DNA from: Calditrichota bacterium
GTDB lineage: Bacteria > Zhuqueibacterota > Zhuqueibacteria > Zhuqueibacterales > Geothermadaptataceae
Length of the DNA: 64,000 nucleotides
Assembly: GCA_008501765.1 (NCBI GenBank)
Contig: QQUE01000013.1
Span: forward strand, 1-64,000
Reading direction: 5' to 3'
Shown: positions 608 to 10,032 of the stretch, piece after piece
How positions within the stretch are numbered: the stretch's first letter is position 1
Layout: each line of letters starts with the position of its first letter
The notes under the pieces: generated by a model
Seen by the model: only the letters and a program-made list of their open reading frames with translations
Told to the model about the DNA's origin: nothing
Database searches by the model: none
Translations under genes and position numbers: made by a program

Positions 608-3553
608 ATGAACAGGTTTTTTCTATTAGCTTTGTTTTTTACTTTTCTACCCATAAAAATAGCTGGGCAAGAAATAGTAATTAATGAGTTTATGACTTCA
701 AATTCAGTAACTGTAATGGATGAAGACGGCAGCTTCCCAGACTGGATTGAAATTTACAATAAGAGTAATAGCCCAATTTCTCTAAAAGCTTTTAGTCTGA
801 CGGATAACAGAAATGAACCATTTAAATGGACATTCCCGGAAATTGAAATCGGTGCGGGCGAAATACACCTGGTGTTTGCTTCAGGAAAAAACAGGAGCGG
901 AACCCATACAAATTTCAAATTAAGTTCAACAGGCGAAAGTATTTATTTAATTTCACCAATCGGGGCATATGTGGATAGCATAAATTTTGGTGAAATACCG
1001 ACAGACGTCTCATTTGGCCGGGAAACTGATGGCAGTGATAAGTGGAATTATTTTCGCAAGCCAACACCGGGGAAAAGCAATACCACACCCGGTTCGGGTA
1101 TTTTACGGGTTGGCATTCCTGAATTTTCACTACAGGGCGGGTTATACACGACATCCCAAAATCTCATCTTAACCGGAACCGCACCGGGAGATACGATTTT
1201 TTATACACTCAATGGCACACTTCCTGATGAAAACGCGAGCATCTTTGTATCTCCAATTAATCTTACACAAACGACCGTGGTGCGCGCGCGATTGCAGGAA
1301 TCAGGTGTTTTATCTGAAAATGTTGCAGTGCAAACTTTTATTTTCGATAAAGAGACAAATCTCCCGGTCATCTCTCTCGTAATGAGTCCCGATGATCTGT
1401 GGAATGATACGACAGGGATTTATCTGAATTGGGAAAGTAACAGAGAAATCCCCGTCCACCTCGAATTTTTTGAACCAGATAAAACAGGTAAGTTTACACT
1501 TGATGCAGGGATGAAAATATTTGGAGGGTGGAGCCGGCATTTCCCACAAAAATCTTTTGCCATATTTGCGCGTAAAAAATATGGCGCTTCGAAAATTAAT
1601 TACCACCTATTTCCAGATCGGGAAATTGATCAATTTGAGTCGTTTATTTTAAGAAATGCGGGCGGAAATTTTGGCGCTTCGCATTTTCGTGATGCCCTGC
1701 AACATCAATTATTGGCCAAAGTGGATATCGAAACCCAGTCTTATCGCCCGGCAGTCGTCTACTTGAATGGAGTTTATTGGGGAATTCTGAATCTCCGCGA
1801 AAAAATTAATGAACACTACCTTGAATCTCACCATGGTGTTTTGAAAGAAAATCTTCATATGTTGGAGAATGATGGGGAGATAATCCACGGCGTAAATTCG
1901 CATTACACTGCGCTGATTACCTTTTTACAGACTCAGGATATGGCTCTCGGGAAGAATTATGAGTATGTAAAATCGCAACTTGAGATCGACAATTATCTGA
2001 ATTATTTAACCACGCAGATTTTTTATGCCAATGTCGATTGGCCGGGGTGGAATCTTAAGTTTTGGCGGCCGAACAGCACCAGGGGCAAGTGGCGATGGAT
2101 AATTTTTGATCTTGACGATGGTTTTTCCTGGGGGGATCCTGTAGATTTCGGCTATGAAAATATGTTTGATTTTGCTACGGCAACGAATGGTGATGAGTGG
2201 CCAAACCCGCCATGGTCGACTTTGATTTTACGAAAAATGCTGAATAACACCGATTTTAAGCATGATTTATTAAATCGATTTGCTGATAATTTGAATACTA
2301 TTTGGCGGCCAGAAAACATCCTCGTACAAATCGATTCGATGCAAAATCAGCTCAGAACAGAAATGCCACATCACATCGATCGCTGGCAAAATGAATTCAC
2401 AGAATGGGCGATGTCCATGGAATCATGGAATGATTATGTTGATGAATTGCGTGAATTCAGCCAGATACGCACAACAACTTTGCACCAGGAAATACTATCT
2501 GAGTTTGCAATCGCAAGTGTAACTTCTTTGACGATAAAACAGACATCAAGAGCTGGGCAGGTCCGCGTTAATAATAATTTAGCAATTGAAGAATCGAGCT
2601 GGAATGGCCAATATTTTCATGGAATTCCAATTACGGTCACTGCTGTTGCTAAACCGGGATTCCGATTTAAATCGTGGCAGGGTGACCTCGATGGAAATAA
2701 TGCATCCAGAGAATTGATGGTTGGTGATAGTACTCGCATTGTCGCCCATTTTGAAGAAGACACAGCAGTAACCAATCAGGTCGTCTTTAATGAAATAAAT
2801 TATCACTCCCATCCAAATTTTGACTCTGGGGACTGGTTTGAACTTTTTAATAATAAAGATGAGGCTGTAGACTTATCTGGGTGGATTTTTAAGGATGCCG
2901 ATGATTCGCATATTTTTACTTTTCCACAGGCGACAATTTTAAATTCAAATGATTTTCTTGTTGTTTGCCGGGATACACTGTCGTTTGCCACCATGTTTCC
3001 AGCAACCAATTTCCTGCCTGCTCAGTTTGATTTCGGTCTCAGCAACAGCGGTGAGCTTTTGCGATTGTTCGATCAATTCGGAATTTTACAGGATTCTTTG
3101 ACGTATAGCGACAAATTACCGTGGCCAGCAGCGGCAGACGCGGGCGGCTCGACACTAAGTTTGATACAGCCAATCCTGGACAACTCTGCCCCCGAAAACT
3201 GGATAGCCTACTCGGATCACGGTACCCCGGGTGTGGTTAATCAGAAAACAAATGCTGGGACTGGTGATGATTTGCATTCTGTGCCACAAAAATTTCATTT
3301 GACACAAAATTATCCCAATCCTTTTAATCCTTCAACAACCATCTCGTTTTCACTGCCTTCGCGGGAGAAAGTTGAACTTACGATTTACGATCTGCTTGGC
3401 AAAAAAGTAGCTGTACTCGTTAACGTATCCTTAAATGCAGGGACCTATGATTTTACCTGGCAGCCTCACAGCAATGTCGCTTCCGGAATTTACGTTTATA
3501 AAATTCAGGCTGGAAATTTTAGCCAATCTCGAAAAATGTTATACCTTAAGTGA
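608..3553 (+). CDS. Secreted CotH-kinase/lamin-tail protein with type IX sorting domain
   Basis: The 981-residue protein has a signal peptide (residues 1-20) and a lamin-tail domain (about 21-130, motif INEF). A chitobiase-like FN3-associated segment follows (about 170-245), then a CotH kinase-like domain (about 250-620, with NGVYWGILNLRE and IIFDLDDGFSWG). The rest is an InlB-like repeat (about 645-730), a second lamin-tail domain (about 742-865) and a C-terminal sorting domain (about 895-981, NYPNPFNPSTT). CotH proteins are atypical kinases known from spore coats; in FCB bacteria they occur in large cell-surface proteins of unknown substrate. Export through the type IX system and attachment at the surface are inferred from the C-terminus. 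An AGGA precedes the ATG. A second protein of similar layout lies at 57702-60767. Confidence 0.85.
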   Translation: MNRFFLLALFFTFLPIKIAGQEIVINEFMTSNSVTVMDEDGSFPDWIEIYNKSNSPISLKAFSLTDNRNEPFKWTFPEIEIGAGEIHLVFASGKNRSGTHTNFKLSSTGESIYLISPIGAYVDSINFGEIPTDVSFGRETDGSDKWNYFRKPTPGKSNTTPGSGILRVGIPEFSLQGGLYTTSQNLILTGTAPGDTIFYTLNGTLPDENASIFVSPINLTQTTVVRARLQESGVLSENVAVQTFIFDKETNLPVISLVMSPDDLWNDTTGIYLNWESNREIPVHLEFFEPDKTGKFTLDAGMKIFGGWSRHFPQKSFAIFARKKYGASKINYHLFPDREIDQFESFILRNAGGNFGASHFRDALQHQLLAKVDIETQSYRPAVVYLNGVYWGILNLREKINEHYLESHHGVLKENLHMLENDGEIIHGVNSHYTALITFLQTQDMALGKNYEYVKSQLEIDNYLNYLTTQIFYANVDWPGWNLKFWRPNSTRGKWRWIIFDLDDGFSWGDPVDFGYENMFDFATATNGDEWPNPPWSTLILRKMLNNTDFKHDLLNRFADNLNTIWRPENILVQIDSMQNQLRTEMPHHIDRWQNEFTEWAMSMESWNDYVDELREFSQIRTTTLHQEILSEFAIASVTSLTIKQTSRAGQVRVNNNLAIEESSWNGQYFHGIPITVTAVAKPGFRFKSWQGDLDGNNASRELMVGDSTRIVAHFEEDTAVTNQVVFNEINYHSHPNFDSGDWFELFNNKDEAVDLSGWIFKDADDSHIFTFPQATILNSNDFLVVCRDTLSFATMFPATNFLPAQFDFGLSNSGELLRLFDQFGILQDSLTYSDKLPWPAAADAGGSTLSLIQPILDNSAPENWIAYSDHGTPGVVNQKTNAGTGDDLHSVPQKFHLTQNYPNPFNPSTTISFSLPSREKVELTIYDLLGKKVAVLVNVSLNAGTYDFTWQPHSNVASGIYVYKIQAGNFSQSRKMLYLK

Positions 3554-3709: not shown

Positions 3710-4915
3710 TCAGTTTTCTGGTTTGAAAGAGTCAACTACAATTTGGTGAAAACGGGATTGGCTGCTTTCTACAGAATATTTTTCATTAGAAGATTGGCGA
3801 TCCATTTTCACTTTACTGGCAATCCACTTTTCAACTACAGCCGCTAATTTTTCTACCGGTGTCTTGGCACTAAGTTGTTCTCCAAGCTTCAAAGATTGTA
3901 TTCGCTGGCTGTTCCAAAATTGTTCGAAATGGACGGGAAAACAGAGGACCGGGATTCCGTGTGAAATGGCCTGATAAATAGTGCCATTTCCACCGTGGCA
4001 AATTACCAGATCAGTTTGGGGGAGGACGTACGAAAAATTGAGAAACGGAGCATATTGTATATTTCTCTGGCTTATATCAGGGGAAACGGGACTAGTGAAA
4101 ATAAAGTCGTATTCAGCAAATAGAGGATGCGCAAACATTTTGAAGTTTTTGAAATTCCCGGAGCTCCCGCAGGAAACGAGCACTTTATTCTTTGCTTTGC
4201 CCTGAAATTTTATGGAAGATTTAATTCTTGTCGGCATTTTTAGATAAAGAGGGCCAACAGAGAAATAGTTCTCCGGGATTTTCTTTTGCAGTGGAAATAA
4301 TTCAGGATCATCACAAATGAGGTTGAGATCGCCTTCCAGTTCATCCTGATAATTTTGTGGTTTTAAGTTTAAATTATAAGCTTTGCGAATCCTACGAAAT
4401 GGTCGGTGAATGCGTTTGAATGCGCTCCGTTCACCGGCGCGAAGCATCCAATTATAAAAACGAACGGGTGTTTTATCTCGGAATTGAAACGCCGGATGGG
4501 ATGGGGGGAGTTCCCTGGTAAATTTATAGAATTTTGAAATATAGGCATTCGACAAAGCTAAAAAAGTAGTTTTGGTTATTTCTGCAGCCATTTTTAATGT
4601 AGGTGCAACATCTCCTAAAACAAAGGCAGGTTGCAGATCTTGAATTACCTGGACTTGGCCCATAAAAATATCTTCTAATATTTTATGCTGCAACCAGGAA
4701 AAATCGAATTGTTCAGCACACTCCATTACATAATTTGCATCAAAATTTTTGCACGGAAACATGGAAAAACCAAACTGCGCCACCAGATTTGCGTACCTTT
4801 TTGAGTACACAAACTGACAATCAAATTCATTCTCGATCGCTTTTGCGAGCATGAGACAGCGTGAGTAATGGGAGAGCAAATCAAAAGGGAAAAATAGTGC
4901 AACTGGTTTATTCAT
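3710..4915 (-). CDS. GT1-type glycosyltransferase, last gene of the carotenoid operon
   Basis: The product is about 401 residues of GT-B fold. The donor-binding signature of GT1/MGT enzymes is near residues 306-338: CHGGNGT, then HGIPVLCFPVHFEQ. The N-terminus MNKPVALFFPFDLLSH resembles the acceptor-domain start of this family. I use the ATG at 4915, which overlaps the end of the lycopene cyclase gene by 8 bases and so suggests translational coupling; a longer frame to 4951 would lie wholly inside that gene. Context suggests that it glycosylates the hydroxylated carotenoid, as CrtX does with zeaxanthin. That substrate is inferred, because GT1 specificity cannot be read from sequence. Confidence 0.8.
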   Translation of the reverse strand: MNKPVALFFPFDLLSHYSRCLMLAKAIENEFDCQFVYSKRYANLVAQFGFSMFPCKNFDANYVMECAEQFDFSWLQHKILEDIFMGQVQVIQDLQPAFVLGDVAPTLKMAAEITKTTFLALSNAYISKFYKFTRELPPSHPAFQFRDKTPVRFYNWMLRAGERSAFKRIHRPFRRIRKAYNLNLKPQNYQDELEGDLNLICDDPELFPLQKKIPENYFSVGPLYLKMPTRIKSSIKFQGKAKNKVLVSCGSSGNFKNFKMFAHPLFAEYDFIFTSPVSPDISQRNIQYAPFLNFSYVLPQTDLVICHGGNGTIYQAISHGIPVLCFPVHFEQFWNSQRIQSLKLGEQLSAKTPVEKLAAVVEKWIASKVKMDRQSSNEKYSVESSQSRFHQIVVDSFKPEN

Positions 4916-5606
4916 TTGACTGTCGGGATTCCCGTGATAGAAAATGTTCAAATAACACGATGTTTAGTAGAATCATAAAAAAGGCATAAATAAAATCGTC
5001 TGCTGGAATTGTAAATATACGCACTCCAAGATTTTCCAGATCATTATACCAGACTACAGAATTTGGGATAAATGATCCGGTTAAAATACCATTAACCAGT
5101 AAAAATGGGAGAAGGAGAGCCAGAAAAGAGATGTAAAAACGGGTCAAATTGACCAAGCGAAAATGTGCTGTGATTGCCAGTAAAAGAAAACTATAAATTG
5201 TGACCAATCCCGTATAAAGCCGTGTGATATTAAAAATAAAGAGGGTAAAGAAAAAAATCAGCAGCAAAATGGTATAAATGTTCGATTTCCTTTGGAATAT
5301 CTGCGGATCAATCACATTTTCGACACATGCGTAAGTGAAAACGCAGGCGTAGGGTATACACACAAAAAATAGCCATTCTTCAAGGGGTAAATTCAATATA
5401 AAATAACCTGTGGTATAATGTGTATTAAATCCCCAAACACCAAGATAGGTGTACAATATATCCCATACCAACATGAAAGCCCCACTGATAATCAACGATT
5501 TCGAAAGGGCTTTCCACTTCTTGTAAAACATGATTTTAGGATGAAATGAGAAGAGAAACGGGATCGAAATTGTGCCCAGATTGAGGATGAGGTAGAGGGA
5601 TTTCAT
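4908..5606 (-). CDS. crtYcd: Lycopene beta-cyclase, fused CrtYc/CrtYd type
   Basis: This is a 232-residue integral membrane protein with six or seven hydrophobic segments. It carries the two signatures of the heterodimer-type lycopene cyclases in one chain: PLEEW (residues 74-78) in the first half and PADDFIY (201-207) in the second. The family converts the ends of lycopene to beta-ionone rings, giving beta-carotene, without the Rossmann fold of CrtY/CrtL. The start at 5606 forms an ATGA overlap with the crtZ stop, which decides it against an upstream ATG at 5675 inside crtZ. Single-chain versions are common in Bacteroidetes and archaea. The product feeds CrtZ, encoded just upstream. Confidence 0.87.
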   Translation of the reverse strand: MKSLYLILNLGTISIPFLFSFHPKIMFYKKWKALSKSLIISGAFMLVWDILYTYLGVWGFNTHYTTGYFILNLPLEEWLFFVCIPYACVFTYACVENVIDPQIFQRKSNIYTILLLIFFFTLFIFNITRLYTGLVTIYSFLLLAITAHFRLVNLTRFYISFLALLLPFLLVNGILTGSFIPNSVVWYNDLENLGVRIFTIPADDFIYAFFMILLNIVLFEHFLSRESRQSNE

Positions 5607-6079
5607 TTGTAAATTTTTTTTCGTTTCAGGATATCCTGCCACACATGTATCGGAACGAACAACATCCCAAAACATTCACCATGATATTTTCCAGTGTGCT
5701 TGTGATGCAGCCTGTGTGCACGCCTAAGGCCGGCAATGTAAATATTTTTGGATTGCGATAGTATGCGCAATCGCTGGTGGATTATCAGGTCATGGACGAG
5801 TAAATAGGCGATACCATAAGCGCTGATTCCAATTCCCACCATTAAGAGATGCTCATAGGCTGGATTTATAAAACCGAAATAAATTAGCGCAATTCCAGGC
5901 AGGGCAAAAAGAATGAAAAACAAATCGTTGCGTTCGAAAAAACTGGATTTATCCGGTTGATGATGGTCACGGTGAATTGACCAGAATGGCCCGTGCATCA
6001 CGTATTTGTGTGTTAGCCAGGCGATGGCTTCCATGCCGAGAAAGCCGCCGCAAAAGTATAAAATATTTTTTAATTCCAA
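5603..6079 (-). CDS. crtZ: Beta-carotene hydroxylase
   Basis: The 158-residue membrane protein belongs to the fatty-acid-hydroxylase superfamily. All four histidine boxes of the di-iron site are present: HKYVMH (24-29), HRDHH (36-40), HDLIIH (96-101) and HRLHH (122-126). The enzyme adds 3-hydroxyl groups to beta-carotene to make zeaxanthin through cryptoxanthin. The start is read as TTG at 6079, directly after the stop of the gene upstream; a GGAGGG ribosome site lies about 8 bases before it, and no ATG in frame would keep the first histidine box. It overlaps the cyclase gene by 4 bases. Confidence 0.9.
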   Translation of the reverse strand: MELKNILYFCGGFLGMEAIAWLTHKYVMHGPFWSIHRDHHQPDKSSFFERNDLFFILFALPGIALIYFGFINPAYEHLLMVGIGISAYGIAYLLVHDLIIHQRLRILSQSKNIYIAGLRRAHRLHHKHTGKYHGECFGMLFVPIHVWQDILKRKKIYK

Positions 6080-6631
6080 TTAAATACCCTCCATTGCTAA
6101 ACCAGCTTGCCGAATGACTTTTAAGTCGTTTTGTTCTGCTTCACTGCAAAAATCCGAGGCTTCAAGAAAAGTAAGAATTCGGTGACGTAAATCGGGGTCG
6201 ATTACCGTTTGCTCTTTACGTAGATATTCAAAAAGCTTTTGCTTATCGGTTGTGATTTGTGATCGATAATGGAGAAACTTGGGAGCTTTTGTTTGAATCG
6301 TGAAGCGTAAATAGTTTAATTCAACAACTGCCGGTGCGGTATCGATGGCTTTTTTAAGTAATTTTTTTCCTTTTTTGAAAGATTTCCAGCGGGAGAATGG
6401 ATTAAAAGAATAGCGGCTTTTTAAAAAATAACCAACAGCTTTGTAACCCGAAATTGTGGGTGAAGCCTTTATTTCCTCTTCTTCAAGATGCAGCAAAAAT
6501 TCGTTAAACATATCTTCATTTTGTGCTGCTTTCACATACATATTTCGCGTTTTTACAAGTAGGGAATCTTGTGCAGAAACCGTATTCAGAAATATGCCGA
6601 ATAATAATTGAACGAAAAATATTGATTTCAT
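6080..6631 (-). CDS. Unknown secreted protein within the carotenoid operon
   Basis: The 183-residue protein has a signal peptide (about residues 1-20, ending VSA-QDS). The mature part is helical and charged, with a lysine-rich stretch near 80-95 and two cysteines, neither in a lipobox. I recognise no domain. It is locked into the operon: its ATG overlaps the crtB stop as ATGA, and its stop abuts the crtZ start. That position predicts co-expression and a role linked to carotenoids, for example in envelope placement or membrane organisation, but nothing in the sequence shows a biochemical activity. I am fairly sure the gene is real because of the tight coupling. Confidence 0.75.
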   Translation of the reverse strand: MKSIFFVQLLFGIFLNTVSAQDSLLVKTRNMYVKAAQNEDMFNEFLLHLEEEEIKASPTISGYKAVGYFLKSRYSFNPFSRWKSFKKGKKLLKKAIDTAPAVVELNYLRFTIQTKAPKFLHYRSQITTDKQKLFEYLRKEQTVIDPDLRHRILTFLEASDFCSEAEQNDLKVIRQAGLAMEGI

Positions 6632-7464
6632 ACCAGTCCCAATCTATAACCAAGGTACGACCGAATTAGTATGATTATCTTTTTGTAACGCGGGAGCCGA
6701 AAGCGGCGTTTTATCAATGCTTCAGATGGTGCCCGGCAAATCATTTTAAATAATGAGAAATAATAAACATAAGCGAGATAAACACCAAACCGGGCTTCCC
6801 GGGGAAGATTGCGTATTCCGCACGTGCTTGCTTTGAAATCGGCTGCAATTTCTATTTCGATTTCTTTCTTTTCCCGGTCGGTGAGTGCATCAAAATTCAC
6901 ATTGGGAAAATAGGAGCGGTTCAAATCCTGCAAATCTTCCTTCATATCTCGTAAAAAGTTCACTTTCTGGAATGCCGCGCCGAGGCGCATGGCGGGTGAT
7001 CTTAATCGCTCATATTGCATTTTATCACCATTACAAAATACATGCAGGCACATCAGCCCAACAACCTCGGCTGAACCGAGAATATACGTATCAAAATTTT
7101 CGCGGGTGTAGTTTTGTTGGACTAAATCCATTTCCATACTTTGCAGGAATGTCTCGATAAGTTCCGGGTTAACATTGTATTCGTTTACCGTTTCCTGAAA
7201 GCTATTCAGCACCGGATTTGAACTGATTCCCTGATTGATTGCCCGATACGTTTGAGTTTTGTATTCGGTGAGAATATCAGCCCGCGGAAAATCCAAAAAG
7301 CTATCAACAATTTCATCCGCCAACCGCACGAAACCGTAAATCGCATAAATCGGTTTGTGAATAGAACGGTGCAGACATTTTATCCCCAGTGAAAAGCTGG
7401 TGCTGTAGGCATGTGTTACAATCTTGCTGCTCTTGTAAGATACGTCATCAAATAGTGATTTCAT
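6628..7464 (-). CDS. crtB: Phytoene synthase
   Basis: The 278-residue protein belongs to the squalene/phytoene synthase family. It joins two geranylgeranyl diphosphates into phytoene, the first committed step of C40 carotenoid synthesis. Both Mg-binding aspartate motifs are visible: ADEIVD (residues 49-54) and NFLRDMKEDLQD (169-180). The ATG at 7464 overlaps the crtI end by 17 bases; a TTG two codons earlier is possible but less likely. The gene overlaps the following unknown gene by 4 bases. No GGPP synthase (crtE) is in the window, so the precursor must come from elsewhere. Confidence 0.93.
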   Translation of the reverse strand: MKSLFDDVSYKSSKIVTHAYSTSFSLGIKCLHRSIHKPIYAIYGFVRLADEIVDSFLDFPRADILTEYKTQTYRAINQGISSNPVLNSFQETVNEYNVNPELIETFLQSMEMDLVQQNYTRENFDTYILGSAEVVGLMCLHVFCNGDKMQYERLRSPAMRLGAAFQKVNFLRDMKEDLQDLNRSYFPNVNFDALTDREKKEIEIEIAADFKASTCGIRNLPREARFGVYLAYVYYFSLFKMICRAPSEALIKRRFRLPRYKKIIILIRSYLGYRLGLV

Positions 7465-8932
7465 TTTCAATGGCTTCCTTTACGAGATTTGCGGCAATTT
7501 CACCTGAGATTAGGCTGGGAGGAACTCCCGGGCCTGGAACGGTGAGTTGCCCGGCAAAATATAAATTTCTTACTTTTTTACTCTTCATTTTTGGTTTCAT
7601 TAGCGCTGTTTGTTTAAGGGTATTTGCCAGACCGTAGGCATTTCCCTTAAAAGCGTTATAATCATTGGCAAATTCGTTGACAGAATACGTCCTTTTAAAT
7701 ACAATCCGTGGTCGGATATCATGCCCTGTCAGGTGGGCAAATCGTGCGGTAATATTTTGGAAAATACGCTCATGCTCAGAATGCGAATTTTCGAGGCCAG
7801 CAGCAATTGGCACGAGAATGAATAAATTTTCACAGTCCGGCGGCGCTACTGTTGCGTCAGATTTAGACGGGCAACAGACATAAAATAAGGGATTTGCGGG
7901 CCACCGGGCTTCGCTGTAAATCGCATCAAGGTGGCGATCAAAATTTTGATCAAAGAAAAGCGTGTGGTGGCGCAGGGAACCTATTTTGCCTTTGATGCCG
8001 AGGTAAAAAATTAAGCACGAAGGTGCAAGAACACGTTTATCCCAGTAGGATGGGGTGTATCTCCGCCATTCCGGCGCGAGCAATTTTTGTTCAACATGAT
8101 GGTAATCCGCGGCAGCAACCACATAATCAACGTCAATGTTCTCTCCATCGACCCGCAATGATGTTGCTGTACCTGATTCAATATTGATACCAGTCACATT
8201 TGCATTCTCGTGAATTTGCACATTTAAGTTGCGGGCAACATGAACCATGGCATTGATTAACGAATTGAGACCACCAGTGGGATACCAGGTTCCGAGCGAA
8301 TGTCCGGCATAATTCATAATAGTGTAAAGGGCTGGTATATTTTGGGGCGTCCCACCCAAAAATAGTATGGGAAATTCTAAAATTCGCAATAGCCGGGGAT
8401 CAGAAAACTGGCTTCTGGTATGGCTGGCGAAAGATTTAAAAATATTGAATTTCAGGGAATGATAAATCAGCAGGGGATCGCAATACTCCGAAATTTTTTC
8501 ACCTGATTTAAAGATCACATCCTTCATTACCATGTGGTAATTAAAAGCGGCCCGTTCCAACAAATTTTCAAGTTTTTGGCCAGCGCCGTATTCAGTCGAT
8601 TCAAAAAGGTTTATTAATTTTGTTTCATCATCTGGAATTTCCCAATAGTCTCCGAGCCCAAAATAGGCAGAAAAAGCAGGATCCAGCCGCTGCAACTCTA
8701 AAAGTGCGTTAACATCCGCGCCCAATTTCTTAAAAAATCTGTCAAAAATTTCAGGCATCCAATACCAACTTGGCCCCATATCAAACTTGAACCCCTGCGC
8801 TGTGAAAACCCGGGCACGTCCGCCAAGGCTGGAATTTTTCTCGAAAACAGAAACGTGATGGCCTTGCTGGGCTAAAAAAGCAGCTGCGGAAAGACCTGAA
8901 AATCCGGAACCGATGACAGCAATTTTTTTCAT
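7448..8932 (-). CDS. crtI: Phytoene desaturase
   Basis: The 494-residue FAD enzyme belongs to the CrtI family. The dinucleotide-binding fold starts at the N-terminus (GSGFSGL, residues 8-14), followed by EKNSSLGGRA and DMGPSW. The C-terminal signature is FAGQLTVPGPGVPPSLISGE. The enzyme turns phytoene into lycopene by successive desaturation. It is the first gene of the leftward operon and reads from a strong promoter at 9055-9083. The leader between that promoter and the ATG is about 115 bases, longer than usual, and its ribosome site is weak. No separate carotene ketolase or second desaturase is present in the locus. Confidence 0.93.
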   Translation of the reverse strand: MKKIAVIGSGFSGLSAAAFLAQQGHHVSVFEKNSSLGGRARVFTAQGFKFDMGPSWYWMPEIFDRFFKKLGADVNALLELQRLDPAFSAYFGLGDYWEIPDDETKLINLFESTEYGAGQKLENLLERAAFNYHMVMKDVIFKSGEKISEYCDPLLIYHSLKFNIFKSFASHTRSQFSDPRLLRILEFPILFLGGTPQNIPALYTIMNYAGHSLGTWYPTGGLNSLINAMVHVARNLNVQIHENANVTGINIESGTATSLRVDGENIDVDYVVAAADYHHVEQKLLAPEWRRYTPSYWDKRVLAPSCLIFYLGIKGKIGSLRHHTLFFDQNFDRHLDAIYSEARWPANPLFYVCCPSKSDATVAPPDCENLFILVPIAAGLENSHSEHERIFQNITARFAHLTGHDIRPRIVFKRTYSVNEFANDYNAFKGNAYGLANTLKQTALMKPKMKSKKVRNLYFAGQLTVPGPGVPPSLISGEIAANLVKEAIENEITI

Positions 8933-9026
8933 TAGAAAGTTTTTTCAGTTTGAGGTGATCGACTAAATCTGTGTATTTTGCATTGGTGAATAAAAAAATA
9001 TTTTGAGTTAAAAAAACTAAAATAAC

Positions 9027-9043
9027 GCGCAAAACGCTCATTT
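9027..9043. promoter_or_regulatory. Putative CarH operator, copy 1
   Basis: This is the 17-bp sequence GCGCAAAACGCTCATTT, repeated without mismatch at 9092-9108. The core GCG-N5-CGC is a short inverted repeat. Copy 1 lies just downstream of the predicted start of the crtI transcript (about 9048, reading leftward), where a bound repressor would block elongation or open-complex formation. Assignment to the neighbouring CarH-like regulator is an inference from position and repetition. Confidence 0.65.
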
Positions 9044-9054
9044 AATTTTAAGGT

Positions 9055-9083
9055 ATAATATTTATTTCAATAATTAAAGTCAA
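9055..9083 (-). promoter_or_regulatory. Predicted sigma-70 promoter of the crt operon
   Basis: Reading leftward, TTGACT (9083-9078) and TATTAT (9060-9055) are separated by exactly 17 bases, close to the primary sigma consensus. The predicted start is near 9048, about 115 bases before the crtI ATG. The promoter lies between the two copies of the 17-bp repeat: one is immediately upstream of its -35 element and the other immediately downstream of its start point. Confidence 0.6.
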
Positions 9084-9091
9084 GCAAAAAA

Positions 9092-9108
9092 GCGCAAAAC
9101 GCTCATTT
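9092..9108. promoter_or_regulatory. Putative CarH operator, copy 2
   Basis: This second exact copy of GCGCAAAACGCTCATTT is in the same orientation and 65 bp from copy 1. It sits between the -35 element of the crtI promoter (9078-9083) and that of the predicted carH promoter (9112). One bound site could therefore affect both divergent transcripts, giving autoregulation as well as control of the carotenoid genes. Function is inferred. Confidence 0.65.
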
Positions 9109-9111
9109 TTC

Positions 9112-9140
9112 TTGTTTCGTTCAATCGCCTTTACTATATT
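9112..9140 (+). promoter_or_regulatory. Predicted promoter of the carH-like gene
   Basis: TTGTTT (9112-9117) and TATATT (9135-9140) are 17 bases apart. The predicted start near 9147 leaves a short leader with an AGAAGG ribosome site before a GTG at 9166. This argues against translation starting at the in-frame TTG at 9112, which would lie inside the promoter. Confidence 0.5.
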
Positions 9141-9165: not shown

Positions 9166-10032
9166 GTGCAGGCAACTATTCAATACTTCAATAGCATTGA
9201 CGCAGCGAAAATTCTCGGGGTCAATGTTTCAACTATCAAAAGGTGGACGCTGGAGGGGAAATTGGAATGCGTGACTTCCTCGGGCGGGCACAGAAAATTT
9301 TTATTTGCGCATTTTGTCAATTTTTTGCAGCAAAATCAGAAAAAGATTGCGAAATCTGATTTTTTTCCCCTATCAAGAAAAGCGCATTCCAGGCTGGTAT
9401 GGCATATTCTCAAAGGAAATTATGACGCAGTAGTACAGCCGATGCTCAAGTATGCCCTTAAATTTGACCGTGGGATGGTGCATAATATTTTGAATTGCTT
9501 TAGCCTGGCACAACATCCAATCAATGAAATTTTCGATCATGTGCTCACGCCAGTTTTACATCAAGTCGGTGATTTGTGGGAAAGAGGCGAAATATCAATA
9601 TTTGACGAGCATTTTGCTTCCCAGGCAATTCGTGATGGCTTGGCACGCATGCAGGGTGGATTGAAAGCTCCGGATAAAATTATTGGCAACGTCTTTTGCC
9701 TGAATATGTCGTCGGAATTGCATGACATTGCATTAAAAATGGTGGATCATATTCTGGAAATGCGCGGATTTAATATATTTTTTAGTGGGCAAGTCTCCCC
9801 TTCATTTGATGTGCACAGAATAGTTACAAAAATTCAGCCCGTACGCATTTATGTATCATCTACTTATGTTGCAAACAAATCTATGATTCAAATGGAGTTC
9901 GATCGCATAGTTGAAAGCTGCAACCCACATAATATCACAATATTCGTGGGCGGCCGGGGATTTGATGTGATAAATTACGATCCGCAGCGGGTGCAACGAC
10001 TGCACACTTTCAAAGAAGTCGCGATTGTGTAA
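9166..10032 (+). CDS. carH: CarH/LitR-like B12-dependent light-sensing MerR repressor
   Basis: The 288-residue protein has an N-terminal MerR-type helix-turn-helix (about residues 8-60, AAKILGVNVSTIKRWTLEGKLE, truncated from the left by its reading frame). A helical B12-binding cap and a cobalamin-binding Rossmann domain follow (about 170-285). The CarH hallmark W-x9-EH is complete: W138, E148, H149. The expected lower cobalt ligand is H186 in ELHDIA. In CarH proteins adenosylcobalamin drives a tetramer that represses crt genes in the dark, and light breaks the Co-C bond and releases DNA. I chose GTG 9166 because AGAAGG lies at good spacing and a promoter occupies the upstream extension. The last Gly of ExHxxG is Ala here. 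Confidence 0.85.
   Translation: MQATIQYFNSIDAAKILGVNVSTIKRWTLEGKLECVTSSGGHRKFLFAHFVNFLQQNQKKIAKSDFFPLSRKAHSRLVWHILKGNYDAVVQPMLKYALKFDRGMVHNILNCFSLAQHPINEIFDHVLTPVLHQVGDLWERGEISIFDEHFASQAIRDGLARMQGGLKAPDKIIGNVFCLNMSSELHDIALKMVDHILEMRGFNIFFSGQVSPSFDVHRIVTKIQPVRIYVSSTYVANKSMIQMEFDRIVESCNPHNITIFVGGRGFDVINYDPQRVQRLHTFKEVAIV

Follow-up and report, generated by a model that had tools for sequence, protein, structure and literature searches.

Paired 9-bp direct repeats as putative operators of a divergent CarH-like regulator between crtI and carH in a Calditrichota bacterium

Introduction

The CarH operators known so far consist of tandem 11-bp nnnnTnnACAn repeats, those of myxobacteria being plastic, and the CarH proteins studied to date act as repressors in the dark (PMC9304148). 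In the operators of Thermus thermophilus and Bacillus megaterium CarH, three or four such repeats overlap promoter elements. The sensor domain of CtMerR from Chloracidobacterium thermophilum (8JBS/8JBT) is a tetramer in the dark and monomeric in the light, and CtMerR responds to light despite lacking a His at the position of His132 of T. thermophilus CarH (TtCarH); no DNA site was given for it, an alternative DNA-binding site being merely suggested (PMC11796333). BldC of Streptomyces (6AMA/6AMK) reads 9-bp direct repeats, AATTXXXX(C), head to tail, with Arg30 contacting the C-G pair (PMC5859096). It is a sensor-free protein of 68 residues that forms extended oligomers on DNA and acts in developmental control rather than in a light response. 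B12-independent relatives of CarH occur as well, namely CarA of Myxococcus and the class II LitR of Pseudomonas. Searches of an open-access library turned up no description of a CarH operator with 9-bp repeats.

Here we describe the gap between divergent crtI and carH genes of a Calditrichota bacterium, located in a stretch of 64,000 nucleotides that was analyzed as a whole (the window). An original prediction, made from the letters of this DNA, had proposed two 17-bp repeats in the gap as binding sites of the neighboring CarH-like protein.

Results

Carotenoid genes and a CarH-like regulator

The gap separates a carotenoid operon on the minus strand from a regulator gene on the plus strand. 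Genes, predicted promoters, and predicted operator sites were as follows.

3710 to 4951, minus strand: glycosyltransferase (Pfam Glyco_tran_28_C and UDPGT)
4908 to 5675, minus strand: lycopene cyclase (Pfam Lycopene_cyc)
5603 to 6079, minus strand: crtZ-like hydroxylase (Pfam FA_hydroxylase)
6080 to 6631, minus strand: 183-aa ORF of the carotenoid operon, flanked by crtB and the hydroxylase gene, no Pfam match
6628 to 7470, minus strand: crtB, phytoene synthase (Pfam SQS_PSY)
7448 to 8932, minus strand: crtI, encoding a phytoene desaturase-like protein and heading the predicted target operon (ORF; Pfam Amino_oxidase)
9023 to 9043, plus strand: predicted operator site 1, TAACGCGCAAAACGCTCATTT, with tandem 9-bp direct repeats CGCGCAAAA (9026-9034) and CGCTCATTT (9035-9043)
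9055 to 9083, minus strand: predicted crtI promoter, TTGACT-N17-TATTAT (-35 at 9083-9078, -10 at 9060-9055), from a promoter scan (10/12 matches)
9088 to 9108, plus strand: predicted operator site 2, AAAAGCGCAAAACGCTCATTT, with tandem 9-bp direct repeats AGCGCAAAA (9091-9099) and CGCTCATTT (9100-9108)
9112 to 9140, plus strand: predicted carH promoter, TTGTTT-N17-TATATT (9112-9117 and 9135-9140), read from the sequence
9166 to 10032, plus strand: CarH-like regulator of 288 aa, HTH_17 DNA-binding domain and adenosylcobalamin (AdoCbl)-binding domain

The glycosyltransferase is likely to act in carotenoid glycosylation. ORFs of 190 to 200 aa without an assignment occupied positions similar to that of the 183-aa ORF in relatives (e.g., locus L083, 2639-3223). 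Adjoining the carotenoid cluster, at 608-3553, the window encodes a 981-aa secreted protein with a C-terminal sorting signal of the NYPNPFNPSTTISFSLP type.

The regulator matched HTH_17 (2e-7) and B12-binding_2 (8e-13) in Pfam, and its closest solved relative, over both the DNA-binding domain and the sensor, was CtMerR (8JBS, E 3e-27). An N-terminal DNA-binding domain of the MerR superfamily is followed by a helical bundle and a Rossmann B12-binding domain at the C terminus. When its AF2 model (pLDDT, 86.8) was searched with Foldseek, TtCarH and the CtMerR sensor (5C8D/5C8E/8JBS) were retrieved (TM score on the target, 0.83; 2.2 A). The ligand residues W138, E148, H149, and H186 correspond to W131, E141, H142, and H177 of TtCarH, and these W/E/H/H residues were present in the window protein and in every B12-type relative. 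The sensor fold and ligand residues are those of T. thermophilus and B. megaterium CarH, as are the position of the gene beside crt genes and the presence of direct repeats, here a predicted operator, at the promoter. The upper ligand His132 of TtCarH is replaced by Glu139 (Arg in CtMerR, which shares the lack of His at this position), and the residue that serves the bis-His light state is accordingly absent. Of the light signature, GDLW, EH, and GQVSP are present and the GxxH position reads SELH, with Ser in place of Gly; because of these two substitutions, the photochemistry may differ. A cobalamin adenosyltransferase gene is present in the genome.

The DNA-binding domain is of the HTH_17 (BldC-like) type and not of the classical MerR type. 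Searched alone, it retrieved CtMerR first, with an alignment over KRW...GGHRRF/KF, and BldC second (6AMA/6AMK, E about 0.002). R26, the equivalent of BldC Arg30, and G40-R43 of the GGHRR/K wing were invariant in 46 proteins. The regulator shares with BldC the HTH_17-like winged helix, this Arg, and, in its putative sites, 9-bp direct repeats arranged head to tail; with 288 aa and a sensor domain, it is not one of the short, DNA-binding-domain-only proteins, oligomerizing through the winged helix, that make up the BldC family.

Two exact repeats in the gap

As predicted, GCGCAAAACGCTCATTT was found in two exact plus-strand copies, one at 9027-9043 and the other at 9092-9108, whose starts are 65 bp apart. 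They are the whole set in the 5,917,398-base genome. When the 233-bp gap was shuffled 5,000 times with a Markov model, 5 of the shuffles contained an exact 17-bp repeat. Genomic matches with one or two mismatches lie within genes, and 18 matches to a relaxed pattern were all within other ORFs, except for the two gap copies; the scattering of the 17-mer through the genome that would speak against an operator was therefore not seen, and a dispersed genomic repeat was rejected as an explanation, the near matches being intragenic. The window contains just one other 17-mer repeated in direct orientation, TTGATGAAATGCACGAA (33063 and 47482), which is unrelated to the pair in the gap.

A 9-bp unit conserved upstream of carH

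The 17-mer is a real repeat but not the basic unit of the site: each site is made of two tandem 9-bp direct repeats, CGCKCAWWW CGCTCAWWW. This unit was first suggested by the DNA upstream of CarH orthologues, of which an alignment-based contig scan gave 60 loci and a single-protein scan none. When CGCTCA-Nd-CGCTCA (d = 0 to 12) was counted in 39 CarH-orthologue loci, most of them from the genome scan, only d = 3, a period of 9, stood out, with 16 exact pairs and 26 with one mismatch (other spacings, 0 to 1 and 0 to 3, respectively). Period-9 pairs were also found in 22 more distant loci (17 exact and 25 with one mismatch). A de novo search for exact tandem 6-mers at periods of 7 to 14, from which the window was excluded, ranked GCTCAT/CGCTCA at period 9 on top.

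Of 57 carH upstream regions, 38 contained a period-9 site with at most two mismatches in the 250 bp before the gene (shuffled mean, 0.5; shuffled maximum, 2; other spacings, 0 to 6), and the remaining 19 contained none at that threshold. With a 21-column scoring matrix built from 39 sites of other genomes, the window being left out, the two window copies scored 27.3 and 27.2 bits and ranked first (site 2) and second (site 1) among all window positions; the next position scored 11.3 bits, and ten shuffled 64-kb sequences reached 15.6 bits at most. The exact window 17-mer recurred upstream of a TonB receptor-carH gene pair on a Neomarinimicrobiota contig (L090).

Written as AWWACGCTC with a period of 9, the window unit shows the BldC-type pattern of an AT-rich tract, N4, and then C, and we infer that it stands in the same register as the BldC site AATTXXXX(C). 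The likely binder of the 9-bp repeats is the divergent CarH-like regulator. This comparative evidence is strong, and it supports the original proposal that the repeats serve as an operator of the neighboring protein.

Promoter geometry at crtI and carH

The crtI promoter that had been read by eye, TTGACT and TATTAT with a 17-base spacer, was recovered mechanically as the top match of the promoter scan in the gap. The -35 and -10 elements of carH fell under the scan threshold, yet their spacing is as in relatives. There, sites resemble WWACGCTCAWWACGCTCAWWT, and the 15-mer is followed, usually after 6 or 8 nt, by TTG(ACA), N17, and TATATT; in the window, the distance from site 2 to the carH -35 element is likewise 6 nt, and the offsets of TTG (+6) and TATATT (+29) from the site agree with those in relatives. 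The GTG at 9166 is more likely the carH start than the mechanically assigned TTG at 9112, since the latter lies within the -35 element of the promoter read at 9112-9140. Copy 2 overlaps the carH frame solely in its 5' stop-to-stop extension, upstream of the likely start.

The repeats thus flank the crtI promoter and abut that of carH, in agreement with what had been described: copy 2 has the crtI -35 element on one side and that of carH, which it adjoins, on the other, and copy 1 lies just past the predicted crtI start, from about +5 to about +21 of the transcript. Five Calditrichota loci (L064, L065, L066, L067, and L072) likewise have two sites per crt-carH gap, spaced by 56 to 58 bp: the -35 elements enclose one, and the other lies just past the crt -10 element; the window layout matches theirs, but at 65 bp and with copy 1 in the opposite orientation. 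The conserved spacing between site and promoter fits the autoregulatory geometry claimed for an operator next to a CarH-like gene.

From these data, the 17-mers are probably operators of the divergent CarH-like regulator, with dark repression and autoregulation by an AdoCbl-dependent tetramer and relief by light. An unlikely reading is that the regulator binds the repeats as an activator of crt and carH, or in a dual role as activator and repressor, from the site just upstream of the -35 element; many genes do have a single site just upstream of the -35 hexamer, an activator-like position, but known CarH proteins are dark repressors (PMC9304148), and one site, here and in several relatives, covers the region where crtI transcription starts, so that an activator bound there would obstruct polymerase.

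Distribution of the motif and putative regulon

In 27 genomes holding CarH relatives, the strict motif gave 52 matches, versus 0 for a reversed control. Across the phylum of the window, the exact motif was found in 5 of 11 genomes with carH and in 3 of 71 without (Fisher P = 8e-4); two of the latter three matches are intragenic and the third is ambiguous. Sites in relatives lay before or beside genes for crtI, lycopene cyclase, photolyases, microbial rhodopsin, SOUL proteins, MsrA, GTP cyclohydrolase II (riboflavin), TonB receptors, and DUF4397 proteins, the target among neighboring genes being uncertain for some. The search proposed earlier for the motif near crt, photolyase, and B12 genes revealed a wider putative regulon in relatives and none visible in this genome, in which a PF00875 search found no photolyase as a target.

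DUF4397/CHRD secreted proteins preceded by repeat sites occurred in Calditrichota/KSB1 and in one Bacteroidota MAG (L053, 11086-11248; L078, 1701-1724; L081, 9829-9910; L145; L148) and form an unexpected class in a light regulon. Three loci titled Flavobacteriaceae (L104), Deltaproteobacteria (L065), and Ectothiorhodospiraceae (L088) encode proteins near those of Calditrichota or Neomarinimicrobiota and possibly stem from misbinned or mislabelled MAGs.

In 11 CarH-like proteins, nearly all from Neomarinimicrobiota (L103, L104, L106, L107, L110, L112, L113, L115, L116, L118, and L122), the W, EH, and H ligand residues were lost together. These proteins form one branch (100/100 support), which gained a YLCNLQCC-like segment and retains both the DNA-binding domain and the 9-bp operator; genes preceded by the operator include one for a rhodopsin and those for photolyases. 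Hence the operator goes with the DNA-binding domain and not with the cofactor, and its presence need not mean control by B12. Like CarA and class II LitR, the subclade represents B12-independent relatives of CarH; unlike in them, the ligand residues themselves are gone from its proteins, which also contain the extra CC-containing segment.

That many genes other than carH are preceded by sites in relatives, and that some site-bearing genomes have a CarH relative without B12 residues, would suit sites owned by another transcription factor of a light-stress regulon, with carH as just one target. We regard this as less probable still than activation: carH is the most consistent gene behind a site, motif and carH co-occur, a 9-bp head-to-tail repeat is the form read by an HTH_17/BldC-type domain, and domain and site are conserved jointly across several phyla.

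Comparison with the 11-bp operator and with RNA elements

The original prediction had noted that the site differs from known CarH operators, and this was borne out: in the window, a pair of 9-bp CGCTCAWWW repeats lies immediately 5' of the -35 element and another site is located at the start, and nnnnTnnACAn is absent. In the gap, the best match to three canonical 11-bp repeats was 7/12, under the usual shuffled best of 8. Although the sensor domain of the regulator is of the CarH type and the operators of myxobacterial CarH are plastic (PMC9304148), degenerate canonical operators are thus a very improbable explanation, the conserved period being 9 and not 11. In our judgment, the 9-bp repeats represent a new class of operator that belongs to a divergent clade of CarH proteins.

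An origin of the sites as RNA elements (terminators or small hairpins) or as chance or mobile repeats is the least credible reading. A weak hairpin is possible in GCGCAAAACGC and a terminator-like match covers copy 2 on the minus strand, but the hairpin energy barely beats that of shuffles (z, -0.4 to -1.5), the hairpin is missing in relatives, where the direct repeat is the conserved feature, and copies show no genome-wide spread. A hairpin or terminator role was rejected for its energy near that of shuffles and its lack of conservation.

Discussion

In the preferred reading, dark repression by the CarH-like regulator, two HTH_17 (BldC-like) winged-helix domains would read each two-unit site (about AWWACGCTC per unit) head to tail. 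In the dark, AdoCbl would assemble the regulator into a tetramer occupying the site between the back-to-back -35 elements and that over the crtI start. With four DNA-binding domains for the four 9-bp units of two sites, a single tetramer could bridge both. Bound in this way, it would keep RNA polymerase from both crtI and its own gene, carH; light would cut the Co-C bond, the tetramer would dissociate, and the carotenoid operon and carH would be derepressed. We infer binding, control by B12 and light, bridging, and repression rather than activation, the last being preferred for the geometry and the known behavior of CarH proteins (PMC9304148).

More tentatively, and with somewhat less than even confidence, we suggest a separate lineage of light regulators in which a BldC-like reader is joined to a B12 photosensor and, as a tetramer bridging two sites of 9-bp repeats, governs a photo-oxidative-stress regulon of carotenoids, photolyases, rhodopsin, SOUL, MsrA, and riboflavin genes. 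As proposed, it would extend over Calditrichota, KSB1, Neomarinimicrobiota, Ignavibacteriota, Bacteroidota, and Gemmatimonadota MAGs. The B12 site would have been lost once, in surface-ocean Neomarinimicrobiota, with the operator kept and another sensing chemistry taken up.

The repeats provide a concrete candidate DNA target for the CtMerR-like group of CarH-like proteins, and they suggest that B12 photoreceptors use at least two operator grammars, one of 11 bp and one of 9 bp. A second, orthogonal operator would be of use in green-light gene switches. For uncultured phyla, the sites predict light regulons that include rhodopsin and photolyase genes.
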